This document shows positions 11,538 through 26,002 of a DNA stretch of 28,722 bases, piece after piece. The notes under the pieces were generated by a model. The model was not told the DNA's origin. It saw only the letters and a list, made by a program, of their open reading frames with translations, and searched no databases. The number at the start of each line of letters is the position of its first letter. Position 1 is the stretch's first letter. Source of the DNA: a virus; IMG/VR virus record IMGVR_UViG_3300017771_000075, positions 1-28,722 of that record; one strand, 5' to 3'. Made by a program: the position numbers and the translations under genes.

Positions 11538-12167
11538 TTACCTAAGTTCTACTGCACTATCACCCGTACCAATAGTACCAGTAGGTAATAGATTCATAGC
11601 CATTGATTTTCTAATGCTGTTATTTTTATTTTCTAAGATCATATGATGTACTTCTGTTGGAAAAACAATTAACATACCGTTATTTACCTTAAACCCATAT
11701 TCATCAGAATTATATATGTTTTTTTCTTTAGTGCTTAAATTAAAACTTGTTGCCGAATTGTAATTTTTAAATTCAATCTTATTATCTTCAGTTTCTTCGT
11801 TACCCCAATAATACACCATACTGTACATATGGTTTTTATGTGCATGTAACATACTTTCCTGACCTTTATGTGTTTTTGTAAACCAAGAATTAGTTATTAT
11901 AAAATTATTATCATAATGCATAATATTTTTAGAAAAGTTATGGAATCTTTCCATTATTTTTTCTTCTAGAAAAGTTAAGGGATGGCATTGAAACAACCTT
12001 AACTCTTTAGATATTTCACAACTTTTATTATGTTCTGCATTTCTCCTAGCTTTGCTAAACTCTATATTGTCATAGATTTTATTTAATTTACTTTCCTCAT
12101 CCTGATTAAGTATTACATCAGTTACATACATTGTTTTAGAGAATAAGGGCCAAATATCGTTTCTCAT
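11538..12167 (-). CDS. 2OG-Fe(II) oxygenase-like protein
   Basis: A 209-residue protein matching the phage 2OG-FeII_Oxy_5 pattern: 'ITNSWFTKTHKGQESMLHAH' with H108-x-H110 in the position of the family's metal motif, then MYSMVYYW, then NGMLIVFPTEVHHMILEN with H174/H175, and R186 as candidate 2-oxoglutarate ligand. The ending PTGTIGTGDSAVEL is also typical of this family. It should hydroxylate or otherwise oxidise an unknown substrate using 2-oxoglutarate, Fe(II) and oxygen. Its ATG overlaps the methyltransferase stop (TAATG). It is the last gene of the enzyme cassette. The family usually has HxH or HxD; here it is HxH. Confidence 0.72.
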   Translation of the reverse strand: MRNDIWPLFSKTMYVTDVILNQDEESKLNKIYDNIEFSKARRNAEHNKSCEISKELRLFQCHPLTFLEEKIMERFHNFSKNIMHYDNNFIITNSWFTKTHKGQESMLHAHKNHMYSMVYYWGNEETEDNKIEFKNYNSATSFNLSTKEKNIYNSDEYGFKVNNGMLIVFPTEVHHMILENKNNSIRKSMAMNLLPTGTIGTGDSAVELR

Positions 12168-12994
12168 TAGTGAATTATTTTTATTGTAGTTTGAACATGA
12201 TTGCTTCTTCCAACGACAGTAAATTTTCTATTAAATTTTTCTGTCCACTCTAGTAATGCTTTATATATACCCTGTCTCCATTTTGTATAATTAGATAAAT
12301 TTTTCCAATTATAAAAATCATCAAACTGAATTACAGTACCATTTACTATTTGATTGTTTAACTGTTCAAAAATTGTTGACGTACTACTGTACAAATCGCA
12401 ATCAATATGAATAAATTTAATATTATCTTTAAATGTTTTCTTCCACTCGGGTATCGTTTTATGATACCACCCCACCACCAGCTCCACATTAGAATTAACT
12501 TTAGGTAAACTATTTATTTTCATTCTACCTTTTTCAAATACGTTTTCATCTGTAAGATGCCAATCCTCAGGTAATCCTTCAAAACTATCAAAGCCATAAA
12601 CTTTTTGGTTAAGAAAGTTTTTTGCTATTAAATTTAATGTTTTACCTTTTAATACACCAAACTCACAAACAACACCTTCAATAGAACAATTTTTAATTGA
12701 CTCTAAAAGCATGCACTCTCTTTGATAATCTTCCCAAGAATTATTTACAAAAAAAGATATGTCTTGATTAAAATTAATTGTTGCTCTTAAATTATCTTCC
12801 TCAGTATTTTCTTTTGATATTAAAGTTAAAACATTACCTCGAGCCTCATCAAAAAAACAGTTAACACTATCAATAGAACAATCTTTAAATAGTTCTAAAA
12901 ATTTACATTCTTTTTCACAATCTTTCCAATAGTTACCGACAGTTTTAGAATTTGTAAATACATCTAAATTATAATTATTTTTATCAACAATCAT
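12167..12994 (-). CDS. TylF/MycF-like SAM-dependent methyltransferase with duplicated N-terminus
   Basis: A 275-residue protein. From about residue 85 it is a TylF-type methyltransferase: VVCEFGVLKGKTLNLIA (E111, G113, G117) is the SAM loop, VYGFDSFEGLPEDW follows, and FIHIDCDLYSST plus IQFDDF supply the metal-binding acids D198, D200, D225 and D226. TylF/MycF enzymes methylate hydroxyls of sugars, so a glycan O-methylation role is plausible. Oddly, residues 19-62 repeat residues 83-126 at a fixed 64-residue offset, but the copy has lost the SAM loop (CFFDEARG instead of CEFGVLKG). The gene overlaps the upstream fusion gene by 11 bases and the downstream oxygenase as TAATG. Confidence 0.82.
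   Translation of the reverse strand: MIVDKNNYNLDVFTNSKTVGNYWKDCEKECKFLELFKDCSIDSVNCFFDEARGNVLTLISKENTEEDNLRATINFNQDISFFVNNSWEDYQRECMLLESIKNCSIEGVVCEFGVLKGKTLNLIAKNFLNQKVYGFDSFEGLPEDWHLTDENVFEKGRMKINSLPKVNSNVELVVGWYHKTIPEWKKTFKDNIKFIHIDCDLYSSTSTIFEQLNNQIVNGTVIQFDDFYNWKNLSNYTKWRQGIYKALLEWTEKFNRKFTVVGRSNHVQTTIKIIH
12617..12748 (-). repeat. Tandem in-frame duplication inside methyltransferase gene, functional copy
   Basis: This stretch encodes residues 83-126 of the methyltransferase and aligns with 12809-12940 (residues 19-62). At DNA level the 12-base string caatagaacaat occurs at 12679-12690 and again at 12871-12882, exactly 192 bases (64 codons) apart. Shared residues include the two Trp (W23/W87), E-C (29-30/93-94), C-S-I (39-41/103-105) and L-I (58-59/122-123). 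By eye about 19 of 43 residues match. Confidence 0.8.
12809..12940 (-). repeat. Tandem in-frame duplication inside methyltransferase gene, degenerate copy
   Basis: This is the N-terminal copy (residues 19-62). It keeps the helix (NYWKDCEKECKFLEL) and the CSI turn but has replaced the Glu and Gly of the SAM loop (E111 and G113 in the other copy become F47 and D49). It therefore probably does not bind SAM and may serve as a dimerisation or substrate lid element. Confidence 0.75.
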
Positions 12995-13922
12995 TATTCA
13001 TAACTTCTTTTATATTTTGTTTGAGTATAGAAAAACCAAATATCCATAATGTTCTTGGACTAATTCCCTTAACTATATTAGATCCGTGATTAACATCAGA
13101 TACAGGATAAAGCCACATATCTCCTTTGTTTAAATTTATTTCTTTACCTTCAATGATAGGACTACCTCCCACATGATCTGATAATTTTATATTACAATGA
13201 AGTGTTATAGTATCTTCTACCCAAACTGGGTCTTTATGTATATAACAGGTATCTCCAGGCTCTGCATAACTAGCAACCATACCATCTTTAAAATTAGCTA
13301 AATAATAATTTTTTAAATTTAATTTTTTAATAATTTTATTTTGTATTCCATAAGCAAGTTTAGGAAATACAAAGTTATCAGAGTATCTAGTAGTTAATCT
13401 TTTACCTTTCATTTTAGCATCCTTAAAAAAAGTATCGTCCTTATTTTCTATAATCCAATTAGATAAAATATTACACTCTTCAATACTTACAAAGTTTTTG
13501 TAAATTTTATAATTTTTATTTATATTGGATGTTATTTCTAATACCCATTTTTCAACATCTTGTGTTGTTACTTGAAGATCAAATACTTCAGGCTTTACAA
13601 ACATCTTATTAGTATCTTCAAAACGTCCTTCTTTTATTGTATTTACCCAAACTATATAATCAGCAGGAAACAATTCTCTTGTCTCTAGTGTGGGGCAAAT
13701 AAAATCTGCCACAACATACTCTCCTCGATTTTTAAATTTATTTGCTAAAGTTGCCATCCTTTTGGCTTGTCTTACTCTACCTTCGTGAGAAAAATCCCAA
13801 TCATCAAATTCTTTTCTTACTTCGTCTGCGTTTAATATTTTTGCATTAAGCATCGGGCCTAGCTTATTTGCTAAAGTAGTTTTGCCAGATCCCGGTAATC
13901 CCATTATTAAAATAATTTTCAT
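12984..13922 (-). CDS. APS-kinase-like P-loop domain fused to a 2OG-Fe(II) oxygenase domain
   Basis: A 312-residue two-domain protein. Residues 1-130 are a small kinase: P-loop MGLPGSGKTT (8-16), then LNADEVRKEF, DFSHEGRVRQAKRMATLA and VVADFICPTLETRELF, which follow the adenylylsulfate kinase (CysC) order D-x-VR, FSxExR and FISP-xx-xR. The usual KGLY-type lid is replaced by IKEGRFEDTNKMF. CysC makes PAPS from APS and ATP. Residues about 138-312 are a 2OG oxygenase: H229-x-D231 iron motif in YIHKDPVW, H279 in DVNHGSN and R290 in SPRTLW. The gene begins directly after the sulfotransferase stop, with GGAG seven bases before ATG. APS kinase activity is likely but a related small-molecule kinase cannot be excluded. 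Confidence 0.78.
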   Translation of the reverse strand: MKIILIMGLPGSGKTTLANKLGPMLNAKILNADEVRKEFDDWDFSHEGRVRQAKRMATLANKFKNRGEYVVADFICPTLETRELFPADYIVWVNTIKEGRFEDTNKMFVKPEVFDLQVTTQDVEKWVLEITSNINKNYKIYKNFVSIEECNILSNWIIENKDDTFFKDAKMKGKRLTTRYSDNFVFPKLAYGIQNKIIKKLNLKNYYLANFKDGMVASYAEPGDTCYIHKDPVWVEDTITLHCNIKLSDHVGGSPIIEGKEINLNKGDMWLYPVSDVNHGSNIVKGISPRTLWIFGFSILKQNIKEVMNNDC

Positions 13923-14699
13923 TTACTTTCTCCAAAATTCCATTCCTTTATATGTTTGAGTAACCTCATAGGGTAGTAAAATTTCTCTAGGTTTATATTC
14001 TACTTTTCCTGTTACTTTATGTAAATTAGGTGTGTTAATATGTAGATCAAATAAATTATTTGAATATTCTACATTATTAAAATCATGATAAAAATATGGG
14101 TAACCAATAAAATCATAAACACCTTTAATTGTTTTTTCAGGTTCCAAACAAAGATCGTTGTATTCTATTAAATGAATCATATCTTTATTTAAACAAAGAC
14201 CTTCCTTTAACCATAGCCAAGGTTTTATTACTTGTCCTTCTTTTTCTACATCCATTAAAGATTTACATCTGGTTACAACAGAAGGTTCTGCCTCCTTACC
14301 AAAAAAGAAATTTTTGTAATAAATATTTTTATTAAAAACTTTTTCAAAAGAATCAAGTATCCAATTTATATCTCGTACACAGCAAATAATTTTAGTATAT
14401 GGAAATAATGATTTAAGTAACGAAGTATTTCCTGTCCATGCTCTTGATGAATCAAATATTGTTTCATTTACAGTATCTTTATAATACCCCTCAACAATAT
14501 GTTTTAAAACATTTTCACGTTGTTCTGAATTTATATTTATAGAATAATCTGTTTCCGACATATATGTAATAGTATTTTCTAACATATCTTGTAACGGAGA
14601 TGCTATATCAGAATAAAAGTTTGGGTTTTGATTTAAAATAGCTGTTAATAAAGTTGACCCTGATCTAGGTAACCCTGATATAAAATAATGTTTTTTCAT
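13923..14699 (-). CDS. PAPS-dependent sulfotransferase-like protein
   Basis: A 258-residue protein with both PAPS-binding signatures of sulfotransferases: the 5'-phosphosulfate loop FISGLPRSGSTLL (residues 6-18) and the 3'-phosphate motif KIICCVRDINWILDSFEK, with R109 and S117 in the expected places. The C-terminal YNDLCLEPEKTIKGVYDFIG is the usual later helix of the Sulfotransfer_3-type family. It should move sulfate from PAPS onto a hydroxyl or amine of a glycan, lipid, small molecule or tyrosine; the acceptor is unknown. It overlaps the upstream oxygenase by four bases (ATGA) and is followed directly by the APS-kinase-like fusion, which could supply its donor. Confidence 0.87.
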   Translation of the reverse strand: MKKHYFISGLPRSGSTLLTAILNQNPNFYSDIASPLQDMLENTITYMSETDYSININSEQRENVLKHIVEGYYKDTVNETIFDSSRAWTGNTSLLKSLFPYTKIICCVRDINWILDSFEKVFNKNIYYKNFFFGKEAEPSVVTRCKSLMDVEKEGQVIKPWLWLKEGLCLNKDMIHLIEYNDLCLEPEKTIKGVYDFIGYPYFYHDFNNVEYSNNLFDLHINTPNLHKVTGKVEYKPREILLPYEVTQTYKGMEFWRK

Positions 14700-15235
14700 T
14701 TAACTAAAATATTACACACCATTCTTTGCCAGTTATATGTTTCTGACTCAGGAGATTCACCTCGATGAAATTCTTTTGAATCAAATATAATAGCACTACC
14801 TGGTTTATACTTATGTTCTTCACCATCAATATAAAAAGACCCCCTCCAATCTGGCTGCCAAACAGGTGTCATGAATACAACAATTGATTTTGTTTCTGCA
14901 TCTCCATGACCATCATTATGAAGCCAATGTTGAGTTTTCTTTCCGTTGTATGTAGTGTTAAACCACATCCTATTTAACTCAGTTGGTATTCCTATATTTT
15001 TTTCTTCAAGTAATTTAGCGATTCTAAGAACTAAAACTTGTCCCCAAATTAAAAAAGGATAATGTTCTACCATTGAATTTTCTGTTTTTTTAACTACTAG
15101 TATTGGACCTGTTAGAAAACCACGTTGCTCAGTAGATGCGTTATTAACTCTCCAATTAGGGGTGTTTATAATTTCATTGTACATAAAAAATAATTCTTTT
15201 TCTGAAATAAGATTATCCAATACAACTGTTTTCAT
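14696..15235 (-). CDS. 2OG-Fe(II) oxygenase
   Basis: A 179-residue protein with the double-stranded beta-helix signature: H106-x-D108 in HWLHNDGHGD, a following strand SIVVFMTPVWQPDWRGSFYI, then KPGSAIIFDSKEFHRGESP with H157, and R171 in NWQRMVCNILV as the likely 2-oxoglutarate ligand. The order and spacing match prolyl-4-hydroxylase-like phage oxygenases. Substrate unknown; neighbours suggest a sugar, glycan or virion protein. It overlaps the glycosyltransferase stop as TAATG and the sulfotransferase start as ATGA, so the three are coupled. Confidence 0.85.
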   Translation of the reverse strand: MKTVVLDNLISEKELFFMYNEIINTPNWRVNNASTEQRGFLTGPILVVKKTENSMVEHYPFLIWGQVLVLRIAKLLEEKNIGIPTELNRMWFNTTYNGKKTQHWLHNDGHGDAETKSIVVFMTPVWQPDWRGSFYIDGEEHKYKPGSAIIFDSKEFHRGESPESETYNWQRMVCNILVK

Positions 15236-16173
15236 TAAAATTTATGTCTTAATTCTTTATCAATAATATTATTTATTTCTTTTTTCTGTTCTTGATTAAA
15301 TTGCATCATATTATCATTTAATCTAGCAGCAAACATTGCGTCAGGGTCTGCTAGTCTCCAAGGAAAAAATTTTGGAATTGCTTTTCTATATATAGTGAAA
15401 TCTTTTGGATAACTAAAACAAACATCTCCTGTAGCACCCATAATTATTAACCCCTTTTTACCAAATGCTTTTGCAATATGTTGTCCTAAAGAATCGCAAC
15501 CAATAAAATAATCGCATTCAGAAATTAAAGCCATCATAATTCTTAAATAAGGAAGTAAAGGATGTATGTTTTCAAAAGAAACCGAGTCGTCTCCTGTTCT
15601 TTTAAATTTGTCGTGGCTTGCATATAACACTACAGAATCATCTTTTAAATAATTAAGAAGTTCATGGTAATGATCATGCTCTAAACTTCTACTTGTATCA
15701 TCATGTGGAGCACCATCTAGTATCTCAACTCCCGAACCGTAAGGTTGTGTCATTACAACATACTTTTTTCTTTTTTTTAATTTTTCTTCTTTAACATACT
15801 GTTTAGCTGATTTTTTTTCATACTCAGAAAGATAGAGATAGCCCTTATCTTTTAGATCAGAATGATCATGTGTATTATTAATACACACATCAAAAGCTTC
15901 TATTAAAGATATCTTTTCATTAAAAAACTCATGAACATGGTAAGGCTCTACCATGTTAACTTTACTGTTTTTAATTATAATGTCGAATAAACCTTTTTGA
16001 TTTTGATTAAATGTTTTTTGTTGTAAGATTGGATTGCTCCAAAAAAATACATCCCACCCGTGTGTTATTATTTTAAAATCATCGTTAGGATTTAATCTTG
16101 CATATTTTTCTAAAGCTGGAATAGCGCAAACAGTTCTTCCCGCTCCTCCCGTAAGAATAAAAGTAGTATTCAT
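15235..16173 (-). CDS. GT9-like (heptosyltransferase-type, GT-B) glycosyltransferase
   Basis: A 312-residue protein. The N-terminus NTTFILTGGAGRTVCAIPAL resembles the opening strand-loop of ADP-heptose transferases, and residues 219-250 (ECDYFIGCDSLGQHIAKAFG followed by KKGLIIMGATGD) match the GT9 donor site pattern 'D-S-x-x-x-H-x-A-x-A-x-G ... G'. Middle blocks KYVVMTQPYGSG and DSVVLYASHDKF fit the second Rossmann domain. It probably transfers a sugar during lipopolysaccharide-like or virion glycan synthesis. No Shine-Dalgarno precedes the ATG; instead there is a T-run, and no other start is available because an in-frame TAA lies 22-24 bases upstream. It is the first gene of the enzyme cassette. 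Confidence 0.68.
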   Translation of the reverse strand: MNTTFILTGGAGRTVCAIPALEKYARLNPNDDFKIITHGWDVFFWSNPILQQKTFNQNQKGLFDIIIKNSKVNMVEPYHVHEFFNEKISLIEAFDVCINNTHDHSDLKDKGYLYLSEYEKKSAKQYVKEEKLKKRKKYVVMTQPYGSGVEILDGAPHDDTSRSLEHDHYHELLNYLKDDSVVLYASHDKFKRTGDDSVSFENIHPLLPYLRIMMALISECDYFIGCDSLGQHIAKAFGKKGLIIMGATGDVCFSYPKDFTIYRKAIPKFFPWRLADPDAMFAARLNDNMMQFNQEQKKEINNIIDKELRHKF

Positions 16174-22672: not shown

Positions 22673-22846
22673 TTAAACTTTGAAGACCTTAGGTTTTTTG
22701 CTATTGGGTTTCTTTTTCGCATGTTCACTATCCTTCATAAGCCTACCGTTTGGCATGTAATGATATCCTGAGGGTGCTTTTTTCTTTCTTGCACCTCTTA
22801 ACTTACCATCTACCTGCGCTGATATTTGTCCTCTTCCAATTGCCAT
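22673..22846 (-). CDS. Small basic conserved phage protein, 57 residues
   Basis: Read from the gap: ATG at 22846 overlaps the endolysin stop (TAATG), and TAA lies at 22673-22675. The product begins MAIGRGQISAQVDGKLRGAR and continues with KKKAPSGYHYMPNGRLMKDS before a Lys-rich tail. Small proteins with the 'MAIGR' start, a basic middle and a GY..MPNGRLM-like stretch recur beside structural genes in marine phages. Function unknown; basic charge suggests nucleic-acid or capsid contact. Confidence 0.65.
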   Translation of the reverse strand: MAIGRGQISAQVDGKLRGARKKKAPSGYHYMPNGRLMKDSEHAKKKPNSKKPKVFKV

Positions 22847-23319
22847 TATAAATCTACTGCCTTTCCTAAAATTGGTTTATACTTAGTTTTACCATCTTGT
22901 TTAAATGCATGCAAGAATTGCTTTCTAGGTTTATCTTCAATATAACTACAATGACACCATCCGCTGTTGGGCTCTCCTTTTTTGTAGAACTCGAGAATCA
23001 TTTGATCATAGTCAAGGTTTATATGTATCCAATCACATAGTTCAGCATTATCGACTCCTGGACATTCAAAATCAACGGCTTCCGCATCACAATGTTGACT
23101 GTTAATTGAACTACCTATTGCAGCTGACAATTCTGGAGACCTGTAGCAGCTAGTCACTGTTACGGGACCAAAATGATCTCTGACGGGTTGTAAAATATTA
23201 TCACAAAGTAATTTAAGTTTTGCTATCTGATCTGAATTAGGATTATTATCTATACCCTTACGTACAGCAGTATCTGATTTAATTAATTCTTGAAGATTAA
23301 AATTTCGACTTATTTGCAT
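22846..23319 (-). CDS. Peptidase M15 (M15_3) putative endolysin
   Basis: A 157-residue single-domain peptidase. It starts with the family's FNLQELIKSDTA opening; the motif VTSCYRSPELSAAIG (Arg60-Ser61) is followed by SSINSQHCDAEAVDFEC with zinc ligands H76 and D83, and SGWCHCSYIED with H123. This order (YRSxxxN, SxHxxGxAxD, WxH) is that of zinc D-Ala-D-Ala carboxypeptidase-like or L-Ala-D-Glu endopeptidase enzymes that phages use to cut peptidoglycan cross-links. It overlaps the halogenase by 10 bases. There is no signal peptide, so it needs a holin or membrane damage for release. Confidence 0.85.
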   Translation of the reverse strand: MQISRNFNLQELIKSDTAVRKGIDNNPNSDQIAKLKLLCDNILQPVRDHFGPVTVTSCYRSPELSAAIGSSINSQHCDAEAVDFECPGVDNAELCDWIHINLDYDQMILEFYKKGEPNSGWCHCSYIEDKPRKQFLHAFKQDGKTKYKPILGKAVDL

Positions 23320-24428
23320 ACATTAACTCCTTCAATCCAATTTTTAATATTAAATAACCCCCATTGAGCATATTTAAAATTACTATCTCTAGTGTAGTGT
23401 TTTTCTTCATTATTAAAATTTAAACTATCTTCTACAACTTTTTGAAGAGAACTTGATTTATTTTTTAAAGATAAATCTTTAGCATATTCCCAAAAAGGAG
23501 TATTAAATTTTGACCCTTTTAAGTAATGCCATAAAATAAATTCCTCCACTTTATTTATATAATCTTTTAATTTTAACCTACTATCTTCTATAGAGCAATG
23601 TCCATCTATTGCACTAGAATATAATTTATTTGCAACAATATAAGTGCCCATGGCAGTTGCTTCCAGGGGTTCTAAGAAAAATAATTTATTACCATTTAAA
23701 AAAATTCTTTTATTAATTATAGGTTCTTTAGCAACGTACTGATTAAATGTAATTGAATGATTAATTTTATTTACCTTAAATCTTTCTTTAAAATCATCCT
23801 CAGCCTCTTGCTTAGAAGTTATATCTGAATTATATAAATAACCTACTGATGTAGTATCAGGTAAGGGTATATAAAAAGTCCATCCATGAGGCGTAGCTAT
23901 ACATCTTGTAAATTCAACATCGTTTTCTTTTTTAGGTAAATTTGAAAGTAGTGCTGCATTTAATGGATTAATTAAAGTATTGTAGTTTTCTAAAGTTTTA
24001 GGGGTTCCTCTACAATCAATAATATAATCAGCATCAATATCGTTACAATCTAAAATATGTTCTTCAGTTTTTTTAAAATTAATTTTAACATTATTGGTTA
24101 TAAAGTCTTGGAAATCTTTTGGAGAACAATGCACACTGTATTGACCAAAAGGAAATGGATGAAAAAAACTGTTTTTAATTTTACCCCAGTTTTCATACAT
24201 AATACCTTTTTTAACTGTAACAGGAAATTTATCCTGCCAATTAGTGCCCAAACATCGCCAAAGTAAATCGGGATAATCTAATGTAGATCCCTGTCCTGTG
24301 GGAACAGGTTGTATAACTGGATCGTAATATAATTCAGTTTCATAATTAGAGTGATAGTGATTAAAATGAACTGCACTTAAACAACCAGCATTACCTTTTC
24401 CAATAACAGCTATTTTTTGTTTTCTCAT
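23310..24428 (-). CDS. Flavin-dependent halogenase-like flavoprotein
   Basis: A 372-residue FAD enzyme of the tryptophan-halogenase family. IAVIGKGNAGCLSAVHF (residues 6-22) is the nucleotide loop; KKGIMYENW places K73 where the catalytic Lys79 of PrnA lies; GWTFYIPLPDTTSVGYLY (182-199) is the WxWxIP region with Phe in place of the second Trp; FLEPLEATAMG (251-261) is the conserved EPLEAT helix. It is much shorter than PrnA (538 residues), lacking the C-terminal substrate region. Viral halogenases are known from cyanophage Syn10 (VirX1). It should halogenate an unknown substrate using FADH2, halide and oxygen, or be a related monooxygenase. It overlaps both neighbours (TAATG upstream, 10 bases downstream). 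Confidence 0.8.
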   Translation of the reverse strand: MRKQKIAVIGKGNAGCLSAVHFNHYHSNYETELYYDPVIQPVPTGQGSTLDYPDLLWRCLGTNWQDKFPVTVKKGIMYENWGKIKNSFFHPFPFGQYSVHCSPKDFQDFITNNVKINFKKTEEHILDCNDIDADYIIDCRGTPKTLENYNTLINPLNAALLSNLPKKENDVEFTRCIATPHGWTFYIPLPDTTSVGYLYNSDITSKQEAEDDFKERFKVNKINHSITFNQYVAKEPIINKRIFLNGNKLFFLEPLEATAMGTYIVANKLYSSAIDGHCSIEDSRLKLKDYINKVEEFILWHYLKGSKFNTPFWEYAKDLSLKNKSSSLQKVVEDSLNFNNEEKHYTRDSNFKYAQWGLFNIKNWIEGVNVCK

Positions 24429-24646
24429 TACTCAAGTATTAACTTTTTAATAGATAAAGATCCATCAATATTTTCCTCAAGTTCTGCCATAGATTTTATG
24501 CATTGATATCTAACATGTCCTTCAGGTTTTAATTGACGTTTAGCTGTACGTTTACCTTTAAGACATTCAGACATAGACTCTTGTATACGTGCTTCCTTGA
24601 TCTCTCCTTGTACAATCATAAGCAGGGCTACTATCATCTCTGTCAT
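24428..24646 (-). CDS. Small conserved protein with hydrophobic start and paired cysteines
   Basis: A 72-residue protein with the short hydrophobic start MTEMIVALLMIVQGEI, then SMSECLKGKRTAKRQ and VRYQCIKSMAELEEN and SLSIKKLI. The pattern of one Cys in 'ECLKGKR' and one in 'VRY.C' is familiar from small marine phage and cyanophage proteins of unknown role; the cysteines may pair after export. Both ends are TAATG overlaps. The hydrophobic start is short for a signal sequence. Confidence 0.6.
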   Translation of the reverse strand: MTEMIVALLMIVQGEIKEARIQESMSECLKGKRTAKRQLKPEGHVRYQCIKSMAELEENIDGSLSIKKLILE

Positions 24647-25023
24647 TAATGAGCTCCGTTTCCGTTAGCTCTTACTTTATCTTTTAATTCTTCTATATCT
24701 TTCAAAGCTTTTTCTAATTGATCTCTTAAAAATTCTATATTGACTTTGTTTGTCATATTCATCTCTTGAGTCTCTTCCATCTTCTCTACAGATTTATATA
24801 AATCTTCTAATAAAAAATGTTGCTCCTGGTCTACAGGAACTTGTTCAGATTTTTTTAACAAATCATTTGTAAATAATTCACGTGATGTCTCCAGTGATAC
24901 GAGTCTTGAAGTCAACTCTGTGTATGCGAACACGCCCATTGCTACTAGAATTATGAGGCTAGCTACGGTCTTCATCGGCATCTGCACAGCTGCAGACTCT
25001 GATATGTTTAATGGTTTACTCAT
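24646..25023 (-). CDS. Membrane-anchored coiled-coil protein (holin/spanin candidate)
   Basis: A 125-residue protein with one hydrophobic segment (TVASLIILVAMGVFAYTELT, about residues 19-38) followed by an about 80-residue charged helical region (EKMEETQEMNMTNKVNIEFL and RDQLEKALKDIEELKDKVRA). This is the shape of an inner-membrane spanin or a membrane tether. It sits upstream of the M15 endolysin, separated by the 72-residue gene and the halogenase. Start overlaps the preceding gene by 8 bases. The lysis role is inferred from topology and position. Confidence 0.55.
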   Translation of the reverse strand: MSKPLNISESAAVQMPMKTVASLIILVAMGVFAYTELTSRLVSLETSRELFTNDLLKKSEQVPVDQEQHFLLEDLYKSVEKMEETQEMNMTNKVNIEFLRDQLEKALKDIEELKDKVRANGNGAH

Positions 25024-25912: not shown

Positions 25913-26002
25913 TTATTTTTTTTTCTTCTTAAATATATTATGAAGCTTTTCAAATAACTTGTCTATACTACTAAAAAAACTATAAAAAAATTTATCAATC
26001 AT
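25913..26002 (-). CDS. Tiny Phe/Lys-rich peptide gene, possible
   Basis: ATG at 26002 to TAA at 25913-25915 gives 29 residues, MIDKFFYSFFSSIDKLFEKL then HNIFKKKKK. It overlaps the upstream stop by 8 bases and fills an otherwise empty gap of 91 bases. The pattern of alternating aromatic and Lys residues would make an amphipathic, basic-ended helix. Possibly a holin-like or antimicrobial-type peptide, or simply a chance frame in AT-rich DNA; low confidence. Confidence 0.35.
   Translation of the reverse strand: MIDKFFYSFFSSIDKLFEKLHNIFKKKKK

Follow-up and report, generated by a model that had tools for sequence, protein, structure and literature searches.

A compact SrpI-like halogenase-family gene in the late block of an HTVC023P-type pelagiphage, a candidate brominase of peptides or proteins

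A pelagiphage related to HTVC023P carries, in its late block of tail and lysis genes, a compact gene of the flavin-dependent halogenase family. We give slightly better than even chances to the reading that its SrpI-like product acts on, and most likely brominates, a peptide or protein. Halogenation as such and the preference for bromide are predicted, and the kind of substrate is suggested by kinship with the SrpI group and by the absence of a substrate module. What appears to be new is an abundant clade of compact phage proteins that is set apart from the long halogenases and placed beside the SrpI group. The function of phage 'tryptophan halogenases' was previously left open (PMC2984593) or sought in metabolite chemistry (PMC10452541). 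Short sizes of 1104–1167 bp for compact cyanophage genes can already be found in a table from 2010 (PMC3037559), and in the cyanophage papers cited here compact and long halogenases are not separated.

Results

The gene and its virus

The window, i.e. the whole 28.7-kb IMG/VR record analyzed here, has pelagiphage HTVC023P as its best DNA match, and at least ten of its proteins are 60–79% identical to HTVC023P proteins; from this kinship only, the host is presumably Pelagibacter-like. A halogenase-like gene had been predicted from the bare sequence, and the Pfam and PHROG matches of this intact, ATG-initiated frame are indeed far beyond chance (Table 1). The predicted overlaps on both sides are also present: the start codon has 1 nt in common with the stop codon of the upstream 72-aa gene, and the 3' end is overlapped by the M15 gene over 10 nt. 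Two other IMG/VR contigs carry the same gene (100% identity) next to the same M15 neighbor, and an assembly chimera was therefore rejected. Genes for tail, lysis and coiled-coil proteins make up the neighborhood in the window, and no flavin reductase gene was recognized among the scanned window ORFs. Since the halogenase is absent from the endolysin flank of HTVC023P, a phage also missing from the phage tblastn matches, the gene is an addition in the lineage of the window phage.

Two other regions of the window deserve mention. The ORF at 25995–26666 matches phrog_3704 ('ferredoxin', 1.6e-80), a label that looks doubtful as there is neither a Pfam match nor a clear Fe-S cysteine motif. Between structural genes, positions 11538–16173 hold a run of 2OG-Fe(II) oxygenase, TylF-type methyltransferase, kinase-like, sulfotransferase, cupin-like and heptosyltransferase-like genes that looks like a surface-modification cassette.

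Table 1. The halogenase-family gene, its neighbors and its sequence features in the window
Feature	Coordinates	Strand	Basis or remark
M15 peptidase endolysin	22846..23319	-	PF08291 3.6e-16; phrog_894 endolysin; 76% identical in HTVC023P
Compact flavin-dependent halogenase-family gene, 372 aa	23310..24428 (stop included)	-	PF04820 1e-32; phrog_2928 1e-74
Tunnel/halide loop F251-LEPLEATA259, incl. E256	23652..23678	-	Profile alignment; EPLEATA also in SrpI group
W183-T-F-Y-I-P188, WxFxIP instead of WxWxIP	23865..23882	-	Phe in 140/141 homologs; same variant in SrpI group
F92-H100 short link, stands for ~67 substrate-module residues of long halogenases	24129..24155	-	Profile alignment
K73 codon, aligned with PrnA K79 (catalytic Lys)	24210..24212	-	Profile alignment to PrnA
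FAD-binding GxGxxG (GKGNAG), residues G10-G15	24384..24401	-	Translation
72-aa conserved gene phrog_24646	24428..24646	-	Upstream of halogenase
125-aa predicted membrane/coiled-coil gene phrog_20984	24646..25023	-	Counterpart in HTVC022P and 023Pt_psg01

Fold and catalytic residues

Structure prediction had been proposed as a check of the assignment, and the AlphaFold2 model based on 69 homologs (pLDDT 94.3, pTM 0.93) has a halogenase fold. The best 48 PDB entries for the model all belong to the tryptophan-halogenase family (Z 31–40), headed by SttH (5hy5; Z 39.9, 359 residues, 2.8 Å) and including VirX1 (Z 31.1); CndH (28.4) and CmlS (28.0) rank behind them. The protein scores 114 bits with PF04820, whose curated cut-off is 21, and a profile search of the PDB returned halogenases down to E=0.03, the first non-halogenase being a phenol hydroxylase at E=0.34. 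Clustering with non-halogenating monooxygenases, one outcome named beforehand as adverse, was thus not seen in either the fold or the profile search. Taken together, family, modeled fold and catalytic residues support membership of the window protein in the flavin-dependent halogenase family.

The FAD loop, K73, the WxWxIP region with phenylalanine at the second tryptophan, and EPLEAT, all listed in the original prediction, were found in the translation. All 133 homologs that are aligned over the FAD loop have G10, G12 and G15. K73, the proposed catalytic lysine, falls on PrnA K79 and is kept in 141 of 141 aligned homologs. E256 aligns with E346 in the sequence of the PrnA crystal structure (Glu in 139/141), and the same profile alignment pairs T258/A259 with PrnA T348/G349 and W183/F185, preceded by G182, with both tryptophans of WxWxIP. 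The conserved H90-x-F92 pair corresponds to HPF in the tryptophan halogenases, and a C-terminal GS-x-YDT-x-FW motif is strongly conserved among the compact phage members. In the copies of S-SSM7 (L009:3001-4104) and a Campylobacter phage (L011:3001-4200) glutamine replaces the catalytic glutamate, and for this reason their halogenase activity may be altered or lost.

QhpG is a flavin monooxygenase that hydroxylates peptidyl tryptophan. A similar hydroxylation of an aromatic residue by the window protein, with no halide chemistry involved, is improbable in our view. It would fit the alteration to WxFxIP of a tryptophan motif that is said to block monooxygenation, the replacement of the halide-loop glycine by alanine or serine in 139/141 homologs, and a trace match to the NCBIfam QhpG profile (E=0.004); at 16.1 bits, however, this match is far under the cut-off of 240 bits, and a QhpG-type enzyme was rejected on that ground. 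Moreover, the lysine and glutamate of halogenases are kept in 99–100% of the homologs, the top PDB profile matches are halogenases, both motif variants recur in the SrpI group, and BrvH is active with serine at the glycine position (PMC5945002). WxFxIP and F-x-EPLEATA need not signal a loss of halogenation, since both altered motifs also occur in the SrpI group; with BrvH active as well, the phage protein is most likely a halogenase and probably a brominase.

Absence of the substrate module

The long tryptophan halogenases PrnA, RebH and PyrH possess a module of ~70 residues after the HPF motif that the window protein lacks; PyrH residues 97–165 (about 70) are without counterpart. The link found in its place comprises 8 residues in 138/141 aligned homologs and corresponds to the leader-binding loop region of SrpI (loop from PMC10858898). 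Also missing are the strict WxWxIP and the C-terminal tryptophan-recognition motif (YYHG..YS, PMC8269204), the latter not seen in residues 323–372, and identity to the long enzymes is ~20%. Features common to the window protein and PrnA, RebH, PyrH and SttH are the fold (Z 33–40), the equivalents of K79 and E346, and the HxF pair. The claim that this 372-residue protein does without the large substrate part was therefore correct, and its shortness is common to the clade, intact homologs usually having about 368–382 aa. The compact phage genes are under purifying selection, dN/dS among near relatives being 0.06–0.23. Given this low ratio, the clade-wide length and the intact frame, a pseudogene or truncation was rejected.

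VirX1 of cyanophage Syn10 is usually pictured as the product of an auxiliary metabolic gene. A corresponding role for the window protein, i.e. halogenation of a small aromatic metabolite, such as indole, a phenol or a heterocycle, that occurs in the host or in seawater, is conceivable but rather unlikely, because the protein lacks the module by which small substrates are enclosed, no tryptophan-recognition motif was seen toward its C terminus, and the sister SrpI group is dedicated to a peptide. What speaks for such a substrate is the match of H90-x-F92 to the HPF motif, the many small heteroaromatics accepted by VirX1 (PMC8407142) and the bromination of free indole at C3 by SrpI in vitro (PMC10286304).

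Relationship to VirX1 and to the SrpI group

The careful tree resolved three clades, namely the long halogenases including VirX1 (100/99), the SrpI group (100/100) and the compact phage proteins (99/96), which are thus monophyletic. Rooted on the long forms, the tree has the SrpI group as sister of the compact phage clade; the root is assumed and the branches are long. VirX1 (here identical to syn9 gp42) had been taken as the precedent for the window protein. A phylogeny with VirX1 and bacterial halogenases upheld the grouping with the halogenase family and not the kinship with VirX1, and a position in a VirX1 subclade was rejected by the trees. Both proteins are phage-borne and share the FAD fold and the Lys-Glu pair, but VirX1 is longer, at 531 aa, and has the full substrate module together with the canonical WxWxIP and ESTG. 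The accompanying suggestion of a different substrate is upheld in that free tryptophan is probably not used, judging by the absent module and the grouping with the SrpI group; its comparison with VirX1 is not.

SrpI residues named in the literature are K84, Y102, Y110 and the loop P105-Q-Q-V-S109 (PMC10858898, PMC10286304). A genome scan found SrpI-group halogenases in the bacterial loci L178–L184; those of L181 and L184 are accompanied by a YcaO cyclodehydratase gene, and those of L179–L183 by NHLM exporters. All eight residues (K84, Y102, P105, Q106, Q107, V108, S109, Y110) occur at exact spacing in L179 and L184, seven in L181 and L183, and at most three in any phage protein. SrpE-type precursors ending ITEEQLEAISAGLCCCW, or ISEEQLEAVSAGLCCCW, adjoin the SrpI-group genes and match SrpE with its core LCCCW and leader motif NLTEEQL (PMC10858898, PMC10286304). 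Because of these residues and the adjacent GLCCCW precursors, L178–L184 most probably are srp-type clusters whose halogenases are SrpI or close orthologs. Unannotated precursors ending GLCCCW lie at L178:2512(-), L181:4644(-), L182:1038(-) and L184:2511(-) (approximate starts), in Defluviicoccus, Rhodobacteraceae and Gammaproteobacteria MAGs.

SrpI brominates, and never chlorinates, the C-terminal tryptophan of leader-borne peptides; this obligate brominase rejects free tryptophan but also acts on a fusion to maltose-binding protein (PMC10286304). Like the window protein it is compact, lacks the ~67-aa module and has the catalytic lysine; WxFxIP, EPLEATA (F-x-EPLEATA) and GS-x-YDT-x-FW are common to the SrpI group and the compact phage members. 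Nevertheless, identity between the SrpI group and the window protein is only about 26%, with long branches, and the window protein has FPFGQYSVH where SrpI has its PQQVS leader-binding loop, which argues against its being an SrpI ortholog. No RiPP precursor or maturation genes were found in the window, whereas SrpI sits in a YcaO/NHLM RiPP cluster. MppI, a relative of SrpI, requires its Lys73 (PMC11791876); its likeness to the window protein is known here for the Lys73 position only.

Distribution of the compact clade

Scans of viral contigs yielded at least 534 relatives for one query and 73 for a second, with more than 500 matching contigs in IMG/VR; plasmid matches were distant and partial only. 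Cultured members of the clade include S-ShM2, S-RIM4, Sf-CH8 and S-SSM7, to which the single-cell virus AG-345-E15 can be added. The 'tryptophan halogenases' of S-ShM2, S-SSM7, S-SSM5, S-RIM4 and Sf-CH8 (T4-GC 212 in part) thus belong to the same compact clade as the window protein, and that of S-RIM4 (L008:2995-4158, QBQ74919.1) is still annotated as a hypothetical protein. Some contigs carry two copies. At L163:2916-5092 tandem genes for 362 and 364 aa directly abut and are mutual nearest relatives in trees. A second, distant copy of 391 aa, related to that of S-SSM5, lies on the opposite strand about 0.7–1.2 kb from the first at L025:2453-3625(-), L028:2527-3699(-) and L032:5565-6737(-). 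A phage-type gene close to the S-ShM2 copy in the tree was found at L174:4682-5788 on a 121-kb bacterial contig of the BD1-7 clade; it may belong to the host or stem from a former prophage.

Gene context among relatives

Context was counted within three genes in 103 dereplicated loci with enough flank. The original prediction had linked the gene to virion release, a link that does not extend to the relatives: an M15 endolysin gene is near in only 6 of the 103 loci, compared with 18 for the gp23 major capsid gene (directly upstream in 14), and further neighbors are tail-tube (21/103) and 2OG-Fe(II) oxygenase genes (46/103). A dedicated lysis gene was rejected because relatives adjoin capsid, tail, DNA-metabolism or transaldolase genes and because HTVC023P has the M15 endolysin without the halogenase. 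A structural or lysis neighbor is present in 53/103 loci, which would suit late expression of the compact halogenase. Cargo genes of phages commonly occupy late structural or lysis positions, and the late context is therefore no proof of a virion substrate.

The site beside the endolysin in a late block, together with the self-bromination of SrpI at tyrosines close to the active site (PMC10286304), would also be compatible with an enzyme that makes hypohalous acid in a loosely coupled way and has no specific substrate, the acid leaking out in late infection and harming the host cell or its envelope. We consider this highly improbable, as the lysis link is absent from most relatives and the conserved active-site residues and GS-x-YDT-x-FW suggest a specific reaction.

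2OG-Fe(II) oxygenases make up 12.0% of near and 5.7% of far neighbors (Fisher p=2e-4; neighbors are not independent), an excess we treat as a lead only, and HTVC023P carries such genes without a halogenase. Genes for proteins with a C-terminal tryptophan are not enriched near the halogenase (6.3% of near versus 9.3% of far genes), and the product of the 72-aa upstream gene, with zero tryptophans, was rejected as substrate. A tryptophan-rich phrog_7759 protein (L032:8080-8508) and its 36 relatives mostly have 5–12 tryptophans in about 130–230 aa, and in 13 loci their gene immediately precedes that of the compact halogenase. The phrog_7759 proteins may thus offer a lead to the substrate.

Discussion

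Flavin-dependent halogenases use FADH2 and O2 to form a hydroperoxide that oxidizes halide, and the resulting HOX is passed to the lysine with assistance by the glutamate (PMC5945002). For the compact phage enzyme, we propose that a host flavin reductase would supply FADH2 and that the flavin hydroperoxide formed from O2 would oxidize halide, most likely bromide. K73, with the help of E256, would then receive the HOX and halogenate an aromatic side chain, in all likelihood a tryptophan, of a peptide or protein. Such a large substrate may reach the active site because the lid-like module is absent.

We know of no virus-encoded protein bromination so far. More tentatively, and at less than even odds, we suggest that a large marine phage lineage possesses dedicated protein halogenases which would brominate proteins of the virion or the host at aromatic residues in late infection. 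The compact phage proteins may thus represent a large overlooked group that brominates proteins during infection. With the compact clade beside a known peptide enzyme, the question of function can be reduced to a simple test, namely for brominated tryptophan or tyrosine. SrpI is already in use for protein labeling, and the compact phage clade would add a large natural supply of small enzymes of this kind for that purpose.
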